Assembly: GCA_947625285.1 (NCBI GenBank)
Contig: CANQNS010000003.1
Coordinates: 62,001 to 126,000 of the forward strand
Source: an uncultured Oscillospiraceae bacterium
GTDB taxonomy: Bacteria; Bacillota; Clostridia; Oscillospirales; Oscillospiraceae
Direction: 5' to 3'
Length of the DNA: 64,000 nt
Numbering within the stretch: position 1 is the first letter of the stretch; every line of letters begins with the position of its first letter. Shown here in pieces: positions 26,566 to 30,047 of this stretch. Both the position numbers and the translations under genes were made by a program. A model generated the notes under the pieces. That model saw only the letters and a list, made by a program, of their open reading frames with translations, made no database searches and was not told the origin of the DNA.

Positions 26566-27312
26566 TTAAAGATAGATCTCCGCCTCCAGGAAGGTCCTAT
26601 CCTTCCGTGACTGGCCGCCCACACCGGTCACGGCGCCCTTGCCCCGGCCCCGGATGGAGATCACGTCCCCCTGGGATATGGGGGCGTCCACCCGGATGCA
26701 GACGGCGTAGTTGAGACTGACCGCCCCGGCCCGGATCAGCTCCGCCGCGGCGGTGCGGCTGATGCCGAACATATCGCCCGCCACCGCGTCCAGCCGTGGG
26801 CTCTTTACCGTGAAGCGGACCTTCTTCACCCGCCGCTCCGGCACTGGCACGTCCGCCAGAGGGCAGGGGACCGTTTTCAAGCTCACCCGTCCGGCCCGGA
26901 TCAGCTCCCCGGTGAGGAGCTCCTCCACCGACGGCAGACAGAAGATGTAGGCCCGGTCGTCCAGCGCCCGGATGTCGCCGATCCACTCCCGGCGGATGCC
27001 CAGGGCCAGCGCCGCGCCCATGTAGTCCCGGTGGGTGGGCTGGCCGAAATAGGCCGTCGCCTGCACGGCCCGGATATGCTCCGCCGGGTCGAAGTCCTCT
27101 TCCGCCAGCCAGTAGGGCAGAAAGAAGGCGCACTTCCGCTCGCAGTCCGGCCCGCCGCCGTCCAGGCGGAGCGTCACATCCCCGAACCTCTTGGCCCAGG
27201 CGGTCACCTCCGCCTGCTCCGCCATGGTGAGAAAGCCGGTGGACGTGACAACGCTCTGCCGCTGGCAGCGGTCCGCCAGCTCCTCAATACGCTTTTCCAG
27301 TTCCTTTTCCAT
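26566..27312 (-). CDS. ylmH: YlmH-type S4-domain RNA-binding protein
   Basis: 248 residues. The N-terminal two thirds match the YlmH family (FLTMAEQAEVTAWAKRFG, an aromatic FFLPYWL segment, TAYFGQPTHRDYMGAALALGIRREWIGDI). The C-terminal S4 domain (about 175-235) has RLDAVAGDMFGISRTAAAELIRAGAVSLNY. It is usually in the divIVA neighbourhood; in Bacillus it has been linked to ribosome-associated quality control through binding stalled 50S subunits. Here it directly follows the TetM-like GTPase/NYN gene, 66 bp downstream on the same strand. That context suggests a translation-stalling role, which is inference. Confidence 0.9.
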   Translation of the reverse strand: MEKELEKRIEELADRCQRQSVVTSTGFLTMAEQAEVTAWAKRFGDVTLRLDGGGPDCERKCAFFLPYWLAEEDFDPAEHIRAVQATAYFGQPTHRDYMGAALALGIRREWIGDIRALDDRAYIFCLPSVEELLTGELIRAGRVSLKTVPCPLADVPVPERRVKKVRFTVKSPRLDAVAGDMFGISRTAAAELIRAGAVSLNYAVCIRVDAPISQGDVISIRGRGKGAVTGVGGQSRKDRTFLEAEIYL

Positions 27313-27378: not shown

Positions 27379-29934
27379 TCAGTACTGCGACCTCTTTACC
27401 GCCTGGGCAATCTGCTCCAGGACCCGGTCCACCTCGGCCCGGAACTCCCGGGCGGAGGTGCGGAGCACCCCGGAGCGAAAGGCTCCCAGCTGCACCAGCC
27501 GGTCCGAGGTGACGACCCGGACCGTCTCGTTTCTGCCGATGTCGTTCACCAGCCGCTCGATGTACATATCCGCGCTCTCGCCCTCCTTGGTGTAGGCCAC
27601 CCGGACGCCGCCCACGCTGTCCCGGGAGCCCTGGCCGCCAGGGACCTTATAGGCGTCAAAGACCACCGCCAGATCGTTTTTCGTGTAGCCCTGGTAGTTT
27701 GCCAGCATATCCAGCAGCCTGTGCCGGGCCAGGTCCAGGCCCTGTCCCGCCAGGGCCTTCAACTCCTCCCAGGCGAAGATCACGTTGTAGCCGTCCACGA
27801 TGATGTGCTCCTGGGTCCGGCCGGGGCCGGCGTCCGCGCTGGGAGCGCGGTTGACCTGGGGCGCGGCGTACTGCCGGCGGCGGATGGGCCCGAACTCCCG
27901 GACCATGATGGCCTCCAGCTCCGCCTCGTCGATGTCCAGCTCCCGCCGCCGGACCTGGGGCGCGGCCTCCTCCGCCGGCTGGGCGGGGCTTTTCAGGCCG
28001 CTTTCCAGGTGCATATACTCGCTGACCTTGTCCCACTTGACGGTGAAGCCCCCTCCATGGGCGCAGAAAACGCTGTCGGGGGTGTTTTCCAGGTCCGCCT
28101 CCGGGTCGTAGCCCGCGGTCCGGACCACGGCGTCCTGGTCCCGGCAGGGGCGGCAGCCCTCCACATGGCAGGTGAACCGGCCCCGGCCGCCGGTATAGGC
28201 CGCCAGCTGCGCGGCGTAATCGCCCATGGCGGACACCGGGGCCGCGCCCTCCAGAGCCATGCGGCCGTTCCCCGCGGGGACGGGGCTTTCATGGGTCCCG
28301 CCCATGGAGCGGATGTCGGTGATGGCCCGGCCGATCTGGTCGGCGGGCACTTCCAGCCGGAAGGCGTACCAGGGCTCCAGCAGCACGTTCTCGGCCTGCA
28401 TGAGCCCCTGGCGCACCGCCCGGTAGGTGGCCTGGCGGAAGTCGCCGCCCTCGGTGTGCTTTAAATGGGCCCGGCCCGCCAGCAGGGTGATCTTCACGTC
28501 CGTCAAAGGCGCGCCCGTCAGCACCCCCGGATGCTGCTTTTCCGCCAGGTGGGTCAGGATGAGCCGCTGCCAGTTCCGATCCAGCAGGTCCTCTGGGCAG
28601 ACCGTGTCCAGCTCTATGCCGCTGCCCGGCGGGGCCGGCTCCAGCAGCAGATGCACCTCCGCGTAGTGGCGCAGAGGCTCGAAGTGGCCCACGCCCTCCA
28701 CGGGACCGGCGATGGTCTCCCGGTACAGGACCCGGCCCGCGTCGATGTCCACATCCACGTCGAACCGCTCTTTGATAAGACTTTTCAGCACCTCGATCTG
28801 CACCGCGCCCATGAGCTGGACCTGTATCTCCCCGGACGCCTCCTGCCAGAGTATGTGCAGCTGGGGCTCTTCCTCCTCCAGCAGCTTCAGCTTCGGCAGC
28901 ATTACCCGGGCGTCGCAGCCCTTGGGCAGCACGATGCGGTAGCCCATGGCGGGGGTCAGGTATGGCTCGTCCCCGTCCGGCTCCGCGCCCAGGCCCTGGC
29001 CGGGCCAGGTGGCGGAAAGCCCCGTCACCGCGCAGACCCGGCCCGCCGGGACCGCCTCCGCCGTGTCGTACCGCAGGCCGGAATAAAGACGGATCTGGCT
29101 GATCTTTTCCTCCAGCGGCGCCGTCCCCCGCAGAGGCAGATAGCGCACGCCCATCCGCACGGACAGCTCTCCGCCCGTGACTTTCAGATAGGTGAGCCGG
29201 TTCCCCTGGGCGTCCCGGCCGATCTTATAGACCCGCGCCCCGAACGGGGCGGGGCAGGGGGTCGGGACGGCGTACCGCGCCAGACCCGCCAGAAACGCCT
29301 CCACGCCGTCCAGCTTCAGCCCGGAGCCGAAATAGCAGGGGAACAGCTTCCGCTCCCTTATGAGCCGGACGATCTCCCCGTCGGGGAGGGACCCGGCGGC
29401 CATATAGCTCTCCAGCGCGGCCTCGTCCAGCATGGCGGCGGCCTCGTCCCGCTCCGGGAGGGAGGCGGTGAAGTCCACGCAGCCCTCTCCCAGCCGGGCG
29501 CGGATATCCGCCAAAAGCGCGGCCTTGTCCGTGCCGGCCACGTCCATTTTGGTGACGAACAGAAATACGGGGACCTTATACCGCTCCAGCAGGCCCAGGA
29601 TGGTCTCCGTGTGGGCCTGGACGCCGTCCGTGCCGCTGACGACCAGTATGGCATAGTCCAGCACCGGCAGCACCCGTTCCGCCTCCGGGGAGAAGTCCGC
29701 GTGGCCCGGGGTGTCCAGCAGCGTCACCCTGGTCCCGTCCAGGTCCAGCACCGCCTGCTTGGAGAAGATGGTGATGCCCCGGGCCCGCTCCAGGTCATGG
29801 GTGTCCAGGAAGGTGTCCCGGTGGTCCACCCGGCCCAGCTTCCGTATCCGCCCCGTCAGATAGAGCATGGCCTCCGACAGCGTGGTCTTGCCCGCGTCCA
29901 CATGGGCCAGTATACCAATTGTCAGATCCTTCAT
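27379..29934 (-). CDS. TetM/EF-G-like ribosomal GTPase fused to a Rae1/YacP-type NYN endoribonuclease
   Basis: 851 residues. Residues 1 to about 650 are an EF-G-like GTPase of the ribosomal-protection type: G1 AHVDAGKTT (10-18), switch I ERARGITI (49-56), DTPGH (74-78), TKMD (128-131), then domains II-V. A Cys cluster sits at 589, 594, 597 and 624. After a Pro/Ala/Glu linker (about 648-709), residues 710-851 are a NYN nuclease: VDGYNVI (Asp714), FDAY (Asp760), ESADMYIE (Asp789), TSD (Asp811), R-x-SARE. This pattern matches Bacillus Rae1 (YacP), which cuts mRNA in the ribosomal A site. The ATG at 29934 is chosen for its GGAG site; a TTG at 29940 is possible. Drug resistance is unproven; a stalled-ribosome factor is more likely. 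Confidence 0.9.
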   Translation of the reverse strand: MKDLTIGILAHVDAGKTTLSEAMLYLTGRIRKLGRVDHRDTFLDTHDLERARGITIFSKQAVLDLDGTRVTLLDTPGHADFSPEAERVLPVLDYAILVVSGTDGVQAHTETILGLLERYKVPVFLFVTKMDVAGTDKAALLADIRARLGEGCVDFTASLPERDEAAAMLDEAALESYMAAGSLPDGEIVRLIRERKLFPCYFGSGLKLDGVEAFLAGLARYAVPTPCPAPFGARVYKIGRDAQGNRLTYLKVTGGELSVRMGVRYLPLRGTAPLEEKISQIRLYSGLRYDTAEAVPAGRVCAVTGLSATWPGQGLGAEPDGDEPYLTPAMGYRIVLPKGCDARVMLPKLKLLEEEEPQLHILWQEASGEIQVQLMGAVQIEVLKSLIKERFDVDVDIDAGRVLYRETIAGPVEGVGHFEPLRHYAEVHLLLEPAPPGSGIELDTVCPEDLLDRNWQRLILTHLAEKQHPGVLTGAPLTDVKITLLAGRAHLKHTEGGDFRQATYRAVRQGLMQAENVLLEPWYAFRLEVPADQIGRAITDIRSMGGTHESPVPAGNGRMALEGAAPVSAMGDYAAQLAAYTGGRGRFTCHVEGCRPCRDQDAVVRTAGYDPEADLENTPDSVFCAHGGGFTVKWDKVSEYMHLESGLKSPAQPAEEAAPQVRRRELDIDEAELEAIMVREFGPIRRRQYAAPQVNRAPSADAGPGRTQEHIIVDGYNVIFAWEELKALAGQGLDLARHRLLDMLANYQGYTKNDLAVVFDAYKVPGGQGSRDSVGGVRVAYTKEGESADMYIERLVNDIGRNETVRVVTSDRLVQLGAFRSGVLRTSAREFRAEVDRVLEQIAQAVKRSQY

Positions 29935-30047
29935 ACGCAACTCCGTGCCCCATGACAGAAAACCGCCGGACCTTTTGGCTGGTCCGGCGATTCCCTATGG
30001 ATTGAGGACAAAATGAAAAAGATGAAACTGACTCTTGCAAGAATCAT
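29931..30047 (-). promoter_or_regulatory. Leader of the GTPase-NYN gene: short open frame and terminator-like hairpin
   Basis: A 38-codon frame (ATG at 30047) ends in ATGA overlapping the start at 29934. Within it is a strong hairpin (29964-29972 with 29981-29989), followed on the minus strand by GTTTTC. The hairpin lies downstream of the candidate promoter, so it could act as an attenuator. The leader frame has no ribosome binding site, so its translation is uncertain. Confidence 0.5.

Follow-up and report, generated by a model that had tools for sequence, protein, structure and literature searches.

A Tet-like GTPase fused to a Rae1-type nuclease in Clostridia, a candidate for GTP-gated cleavage of mRNA in the ribosomal A site

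What might be achieved by joining, in a single polypeptide, a GTPase built like the ribosomal factor EF-G and a nuclease of the family that cuts mRNA in the A site of the ribosome? This question is raised by a gene in a 64,000-nucleotide stretch of DNA, hereafter the window, from an uncultured Oscillospiraceae bacterium (assembly GCA_947625285.1, contig CANQNS010000003.1, positions 62,001 to 126,000), for which the original prediction, made from the letters alone, had proposed a TetM-like GTPase with a Rae1-type endoribonuclease at its C-terminus. The gene occupies exactly the positions given to it there, on the minus strand, a detail absent from that prediction, and is preceded by a GGAG ribosome-binding site 6 nt ahead of its ATG. 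Pfam searches and alignments confirmed the two-part architecture with intact G and NYN motifs, so that the fusion is real: an EF-G/Tet-like GTPase is followed by a confidently identified NYN_YacP (Rae1) nuclease. The layout of the gene is as follows, A2 being an alignment of 65 chosen homologues and pLDDT the predicted local distance difference test score.

27379 to 29934, minus strand: whole fused gene, 851 amino acids, ATG at 29934, stop codon at 27379-27381
29272 to 29925, minus strand: GTPase (G) domain, residues 4-221 (Pfam GTP_EFTU, 151.9 bits), with the P-loop AHVDAGKTT and DTPGH, which contains H78
28744 to 28941, minus strand: EF-G domain III, residues 332-397 (Pfam EFG_III, 25.7 bits, just below the cut-off of 27; AlphaFold2 model)
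28393 to 28737, minus strand: EF-G domain IV, residues 400-514 (Pfam EFG_IV, above cut-off)
28651 to 28695, minus strand: domain IV loop I region, residues 414-428, GVGHFEPLRHYAEVH
28432 to 28470, minus strand: domain IV loop III region, residues 489-501, AHLKHTEGGDFRQ; TetM and TetO have SPVSTPADFR at this place
28135 to 28386, minus strand: EF-G domain V, residues 517-600 (Pfam EFG_C, above cut-off)
28000 to 28134, minus strand: C-terminal extension of the GTPase, residues 601-645, where the unfused relatives stop
27805 to 27999, minus strand: linker, largely disordered in the AlphaFold2 model (pLDDT below 50 at residues 649-669 and 682-705)
27892 to 27927, minus strand: conserved helix within the linker, residues 670-681, with an ELxxI motif whose E672 is invariant in the 65 rows
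27388 to 27804, minus strand: NYN_YacP nuclease domain, residues 711-849 (Pfam, 149.6 bits against a cut-off of 24.6)

The AlphaFold2 model, for which A2 served as input, has a mean pLDDT of 85.5 and a predicted template-modelling score of 0.67, and is confident in the GTPase and over most of the NYN domain. A Foldseek search with the whole model placed EF-G structures on top; the 50 rows listed are all of the EF-G or EF-2 type, and the search is uninformative for the NYN part. An assembly artefact is ruled out because a contig scan matched at least 594 stretches, at least 547 of which encode a relative; among the best 80, which were kept, the relatives come from Oscillospiraceae metagenome-assembled genomes, Faecalibacterium, Blautia and Lachnospiraceae. 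The combination had been thought to lack a characterized precedent, but the fusion is already in print: Atkinson 2015 describes the acquisition of a YacP-like NYN domain by Tet proteins of ten Clostridiales species and suggests a role for the RNase activity in resistance (PMC4342817). By its Pfam domains, the window protein combines a Tet-like GTPase and a YacP-like NYN in one chain and, as compared by domain content, is of that kind; whereas the group is classed there as Tet, we find that it forms a separate subfamily, with distinctive domain IV loops, sister proteins that are unfused, and a solo yacP that has been displaced. No other report of the fusion was found by title or start of abstract in the open-access literature; the architecture has been known since 2015, and this member is new.

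Is the nuclease likely to be active? Its sequence can be aligned to residues 4 to 141 of YacP/Rae1 from B. subtilis in the solved chains 5mq8/5mq9 (86.8 bits). A C-terminus that is not NYN, or acidic residues that vary among orthologs, would have spoken against the original prediction; neither was observed. D714, N717, D760, D789 and D811 are identical in all 118 aligned fused proteins (121 proteins minus L006, L059 and L122, set aside on account of length) and in all 46 solo NYN domains, so the active site is common to both, and only slightly less strict among the fused proteins are S810 (116), E793 (115) and T809 (114).

The two forms differ at the C-terminus. B. subtilis Rae1, which belongs to the same nuclease family and has the same catalytic residues, is a small free protein with a C-terminal tail, whereas the window domain is fused to the GTPase and ends at about Rae1 residue 141, before the tail and its arginine pair. 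This basic pair, R165 and R166 of B. subtilis by alignment, begins with Arg in 44 of the 46 solo Rae1s and continues with R or K in 42; in the 118 fused proteins, the first position holds Arg in 10 and a gap in 81, with R or K next in 14. R166P is one of the loss-of-function mutations in rae1 that were isolated as suppressors of an efp mutant (PMC6613710). Since some fused proteins retain a Rae1-like tail, the tail was probably lost after the fusion, perhaps several times, and tethering, we infer, made it dispensable. The tail-bearing fused proteins (L060, L066, L071, L072, L073, L076 and L080) are mostly labelled Lachnospiraceae or its genera.

How widespread is the fusion? The hidden Markov model search for both domains that accompanied the original prediction as a proposed check showed the combination to be common. 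Among 393 sampled genomes of the same class, PF05991 was detected in 250 and a domain IV-V profile in 187 at E <=1e-30, of which 164 matches were strong; the 23 weak ones (E about 1e-30 to 1e-36) were excluded. When sorted, this sample comprised 135 genomes with the fused gene and 29 with an unfused GTPase, mostly of about 620-730 amino acids; 'fused' denotes here a strong domain IV-V match outside the 29 unfused frames together with PF05991 in the genome, both domains having been checked in part of the frames, and eight of the 135 have short or interrupted frames (G044, G062, G071, G172, G185, G190, G235 and G295). By our own count, 26 family codes within the class contain the fusion. Inspection of 20 unfused loci showed that the match stops at profile position 640-644, directly after the C-terminal extension, so that the proteins end before the linker helix; one of these loci (L161) is split across two frames. 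A sample of 398 genomes from the whole phylum contained 35 with a strong match, namely 28 long frames and 7 unfused ones, the 20 long frames from outside the class being classed by length and not by an NYN match.

If the nuclease is retained so broadly, what has become of the free-standing Rae1? It had been guessed that genomes with the fusion would lack a separate yacP, and this is borne out: the only PF05991 match in the window's own genome is the fused gene, and a second intact yacP is seen in only one of the 135 fused genomes, the other 134 showing none. PF05991 is found in 115 of the 258 non-fused genomes, an upper bound for solo yacP given that one of these matches (G156, frame 313) resembles a fused gene truncated where its contig ends and that many frames are unlisted. 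More than one PF05991 match occurs in five of the 135 fused genomes, but a complete second solo gene only in G284; in G120, G174 and G208 the second match lies below the cut-off, and G370 contains a pair of fragments, one of which narrowly exceeds the cut-off at 26.5 bits. In B. subtilis, the rae1 gene adjoins rlmB (yacO), whereas in the window genome rlmB is on a different contig. We searched for rlmB and sigH in 15 chosen genomes, 13 of them fused; the two genes are neighbors in seven of the fused genomes and apart in the other six. At the rlmB-sigH site, six of these seven genomes have no yacP or a broken one, and only G284 has an intact copy. Clear yacP pieces with no intact frame are present in G370 and G022 (E 1e-14 and 1e-9), weak in-place traces that may be due to chance in G116 and G299 (E 0.004 and 0.01), and nothing meaningful of yacP was found at this site in G120 and G018. 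Of all the observations, these six sites of seven argue most strongly that the fused protein either performs the function of Rae1 or renders Rae1 unnecessary; apparently, it has replaced the free-standing Rae1 in many Clostridia. Broken pieces of solo yacP between rlmB and sigH lie at positions 2701-2990 of L218 and 1530-1784 of L221, both from genomes carrying the fused gene.

Did the fusion arise once? In a phylogenetic tree of the GTPases (76 of 158 rows), all 41 fused rows used form one clade with full support (approximate likelihood ratio test, SH-aLRT, 100), which also includes one unfused row, from the plasmid pMP118 of Ligilactobacillus salivarius. Because this row is nested within the fused clade, the simplest history is a single fusion followed, in one transferred copy, by loss of the nuclease, and the tree topology fits a single fusion event. 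The unfused gene of pMP118 (L176, 3986-5920; plasmid of 242 kb) is annotated as a tetracycline protection protein and adjoins rpsN. In the NYN tree (82 of 164 rows), the 36 fused domains used group together, with two solo proteins inside the group (L208 and L107; support 94). These two solo YacPs (L208, 2066-2581; L107, 1483-2004) display fused-type features (IFAW, DAYKV or DGYKV); L208 adjoins a sigma factor gene matching sigH and could stem from the lineage that served as donor for the fusion. A partnership of unfused GTPase and solo Rae1 that preceded the fusion was considered as well, the two co-occurring in 22 of the 29 genomes (p 0.0005), but this co-occurrence was discarded as evidence because the signal comes from one family, f38, outside of which the count is 7 of 14 (Fisher p 0.41).

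What, then, is the GTPase? In its EF-G-like architecture and intact GTPase motifs it conforms to the Tet type, domain III falling slightly under the Pfam cut-off; it is 28-30% identical to TetM and TetO across about residues 1-598, and it shares domain order and fold with EF-G. H78 is invariant in the 65 rows of A2, and the other G-domain residues and most positions of both domain IV loops vary little or not at all. The designation 'TetM-like' therefore holds for the architecture but not for domain IV, where the loop of the TetM/TetO type is absent: the TPADF motif was found in none of 123 fused and none of 28 unfused proteins, whereas the fetched TetM and TetO (L177 and L178) and two clostridial Tet-like proteins (L182 and L184) possess it. 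The subfamily has instead H(F/Y)EPxxHY(A/S)EV in loop I (121 of 123 fused, 28 of 28 unfused) and HTxGGD(F/L) in loop III (120 of 123 and 28 of 28). Three EF-G-like clostridial proteins (L180, L181 and L183, the EF-G naming being our own) carry EF-G loops that the window protein lacks. Further differences from TetM/TetO are the C-terminal extension, the linker and the nuclease. The window protein falls far short of the NCBIfam cut-offs of both tet_protect (374.3 bits against 775) and EF-G (240.4 against 659.4), and its best PDB profile match is TetO (391 bits; EF-G, 376). In the absence of the TetM/TetO loop, the name 'tetracycline protection protein' is unsuitable; judged by these sequence comparisons, the GTPase is a subfamily of its own, Tet-like in build but not a tetracycline protection protein. 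A zinc site was sought in residues 590-645, where no complete conserved ligand set was found, although C597 does not vary in either alignment, and C624 is likewise constant in 27 rows and kept in at least 90% of the 65.

These features are, in our view, best read as those of a GTP-gated Rae1, a reading to which we give about an even chance: the GTPase would dock and clear the A site, and the tethered nuclease would then cut the mRNA. In the A site, Tet proteins occupy space that overlaps with the sites of EF-G and of tetracycline, and hydrolysis of GTP seems to serve the release of the Tet protein (PMC8161019). Rae1, for its part, has been described as an endoribonuclease acting in the A site (PMC6613710). 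Under the proposed scheme, the GTPase half, comprising domains G to V and the conserved C-terminal extension, would bind the ribosome at the EF-G/Tet site, and domain IV would probe or clear the A site in ribosomes that have stalled or contain anything but a cognate tRNA there. GTP hydrolysis would lead to the withdrawal of domain IV, whereupon the nuclease, kept near by the flexible linker of at least 63 residues, could move in and cut the A-site mRNA as B. subtilis Rae1 does, with the GTPase tether taking over the targeting from the lost Rae1 tail. We infer ribosome binding, the order of events, mRNA as the substrate and GTP gating. Across 118 homologs, the linker (the equivalent of 642-710) measures 63-118 residues and is never shorter than 63; together with the conserved helix, it looks long enough for such a hand-over.

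Several considerations weigh against this scheme. Tet proteins and Rae1 share the A site, in which both can hardly sit together, so the steps would have to be sequential; the original idea that the fusion delivers the nuclease to the A site survives in this form, or as delivery to a nearby place. Unfused GTPases have identical domain IV loop patterns (28 of 28), so the GTPase also has a role independent of the nuclease, and a partnership with solo yacP prior to the fusion is not supported. Given that the genomes are related, the counts on the mutual exclusion of fused and solo genes are not independent, and because the NYN tree places two solo proteins within the fused group, its topology allows, rather than proves, a single origin of the fused NYN. 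Finally, the loss of the tail, a similar version of which some fused proteins keep, could reflect a changed substrate instead of tethered targeting.

The alternative that fares best, although we consider it unlikely, is that the chain harbors two independent activities, an EF-G-like factor for recycling, back-translocation or clearing and an NYN domain for housekeeping RNA processing, the fusion providing only co-regulation or proximity to the ribosome. The existence of unfused GTPases with the same loops (29 genomes; 28 rows), the unfused Ligilactobacillus copy inside the fused clade, and the long, disordered linker all agree with it. However, a single fusion has been kept in 26 family codes with its catalytic residues, a linker that does not drop below its minimum and a conserved helix, which suggests that the connection itself is under selection. 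More doubtful is a factor for ribosome or tRNA maturation, in which the GTPase would bring the NYN domain to precursor rRNA or to the rRNA of the ribosome. Atkinson 2015 suggests an ability to act as an rRNA RNase and cites a proposal of NYN involvement in rRNA and tRNA maturation (PMC4342817), a solo yacP (L106) adjoins the rRNA methylase gene rlmB, and rlmB and yacP are placed in one pathway in B. subtilis (PMC6613710); against this, the closest characterized nuclease, Rae1, is described as an A-site mRNA endonuclease, and there is no sign of precursor RNA here.

The third alternative, a ribosomal protection protein against tetracycline or another antibiotic with a nuclease that aids resistance, as suggested by Atkinson 2015, draws on the TetM/TetO domain order, the best PDB match, the resistance labels of some relatives, a possible attenuator upstream and the occurrence of four full-length homologs on plasmid- or phage-labelled records. 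Attenuation is a known mode of control of such resistance genes. Replicons labelled as plasmids account for two of the four homologs (among 1353 matching records) and contigs labelled as phage for the other two (among 109), so the gene is not strictly chromosomal, and plasmid records assign some relatives, including a fused one from Agathobacter rectalis, to the TetM/TetW/TetO/TetS family. One of the phage-labelled homologs, a fused one (L179, 5421-7967; MT835563.1), lies on an unverified gut contig that may be bacterial DNA or a prophage flank; the second record is MT835514.1. The missing TPADF motif counts against protection; Pro509 of TetM loop III occupies the tetracycline site (PMC8161019), although loop III has the same length as in TetM/TetO and the TetM triple mutant S508A P509A V510A can be active (PMC4750697). 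Faecalibacterium prausnitzii carries the fused gene in three genomes (L063, L065 and L067), yet 22 of 27 tested strains of this species have a tetracycline minimum inhibitory concentration of <=0.5 ug/ml (PMC8876097), the sequenced and tested strains not being shown to be identical. With a score less than half of the tet_protect cut-off and a presence in about a third of the class genomes (135 of 393), unlike that of a sporadic resistance gene, protection appears highly improbable.

If, then, the GTP-gated Rae1 is taken further, it is conceivable, with a probability somewhat short of even, that the protein is a new ribosome quality-control enzyme, a GTPase with its own A-site mRNA endonuclease that couples GTP-dependent clearing to the subsequent destruction of the mRNA, has supplanted the free Rae1 across a large part of Clostridia, gut commensals included, resides in an apparent operon with ylmH and is, maybe, induced through a leader hairpin. 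Should this be the case, a GTP-driven operation on the A site and the cutting of mRNA would be coupled in one chain, whereas in B. subtilis the small nuclease has to establish this link on its own. The proposal makes testable both the targeting of Rae1 and the role of the unfused Tet-like GTPases, some of which are labelled as tetracycline resistance in plasmid records; resistance counts in gut genomes may include this GTPase subfamily.

The surroundings of the gene in the window contain three elements that may bear on its expression.

26566 to 27312, minus strand: ylmH-like gene (YlmH_RBD), after a gap of 66 nt downstream of the fused gene
29958 to 29995, minus strand: GC-rich hairpin with a T tract, a possible attenuator, ending about 20-27 nt before the ATG depending on the extent of the stem
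30004 to 30036, minus strand: 33-nt leader element before the hairpin, present in a single copy in the genome (up to 3 mismatches allowed)

The fused gene and the ylmH-like gene, which is followed by a terminator-like hairpin (26557-26528, minus strand), are probably in the same operon; YlmH participates in ribosome-associated quality control in B. subtilis (PMC11317155). Among 115 loci, 23 have a ylmH-like gene at a distance of one to three genes downstream, as do 11 of the 95 more distant loci, as judged by greedy, noisy calling of open reading frames, and no gene neighborhood conserved across the group was found.

Upstream of the gene, the leader folds far better than its shuffled versions (z -6.3), and the 21-nt core of the leader element recurs exactly in 8 other fetched loci, always shortly upstream of a fused gene. 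Rfam yielded no matches in the window. A leader peptide was considered and rejected, the frame being open in the window but not, by eye, in the relatives. Of 116 fused genes, 24 have a terminator-like hairpin within 120 nt upstream, where shuffling predicts 0.3, a count in which near relatives figure many times (8 of 22 near relatives, 16 of 94 others). Many of these hairpins have room for a promoter after them and may simply end the upstream gene, but nine of the 24 end within 31 nt of the start and, by our reading, leave no such room, so these nine may be attenuators. The hairpin of the window together with its leader element (29955-30036) is a candidate attenuator or a structure that occludes the ribosome-binding site.

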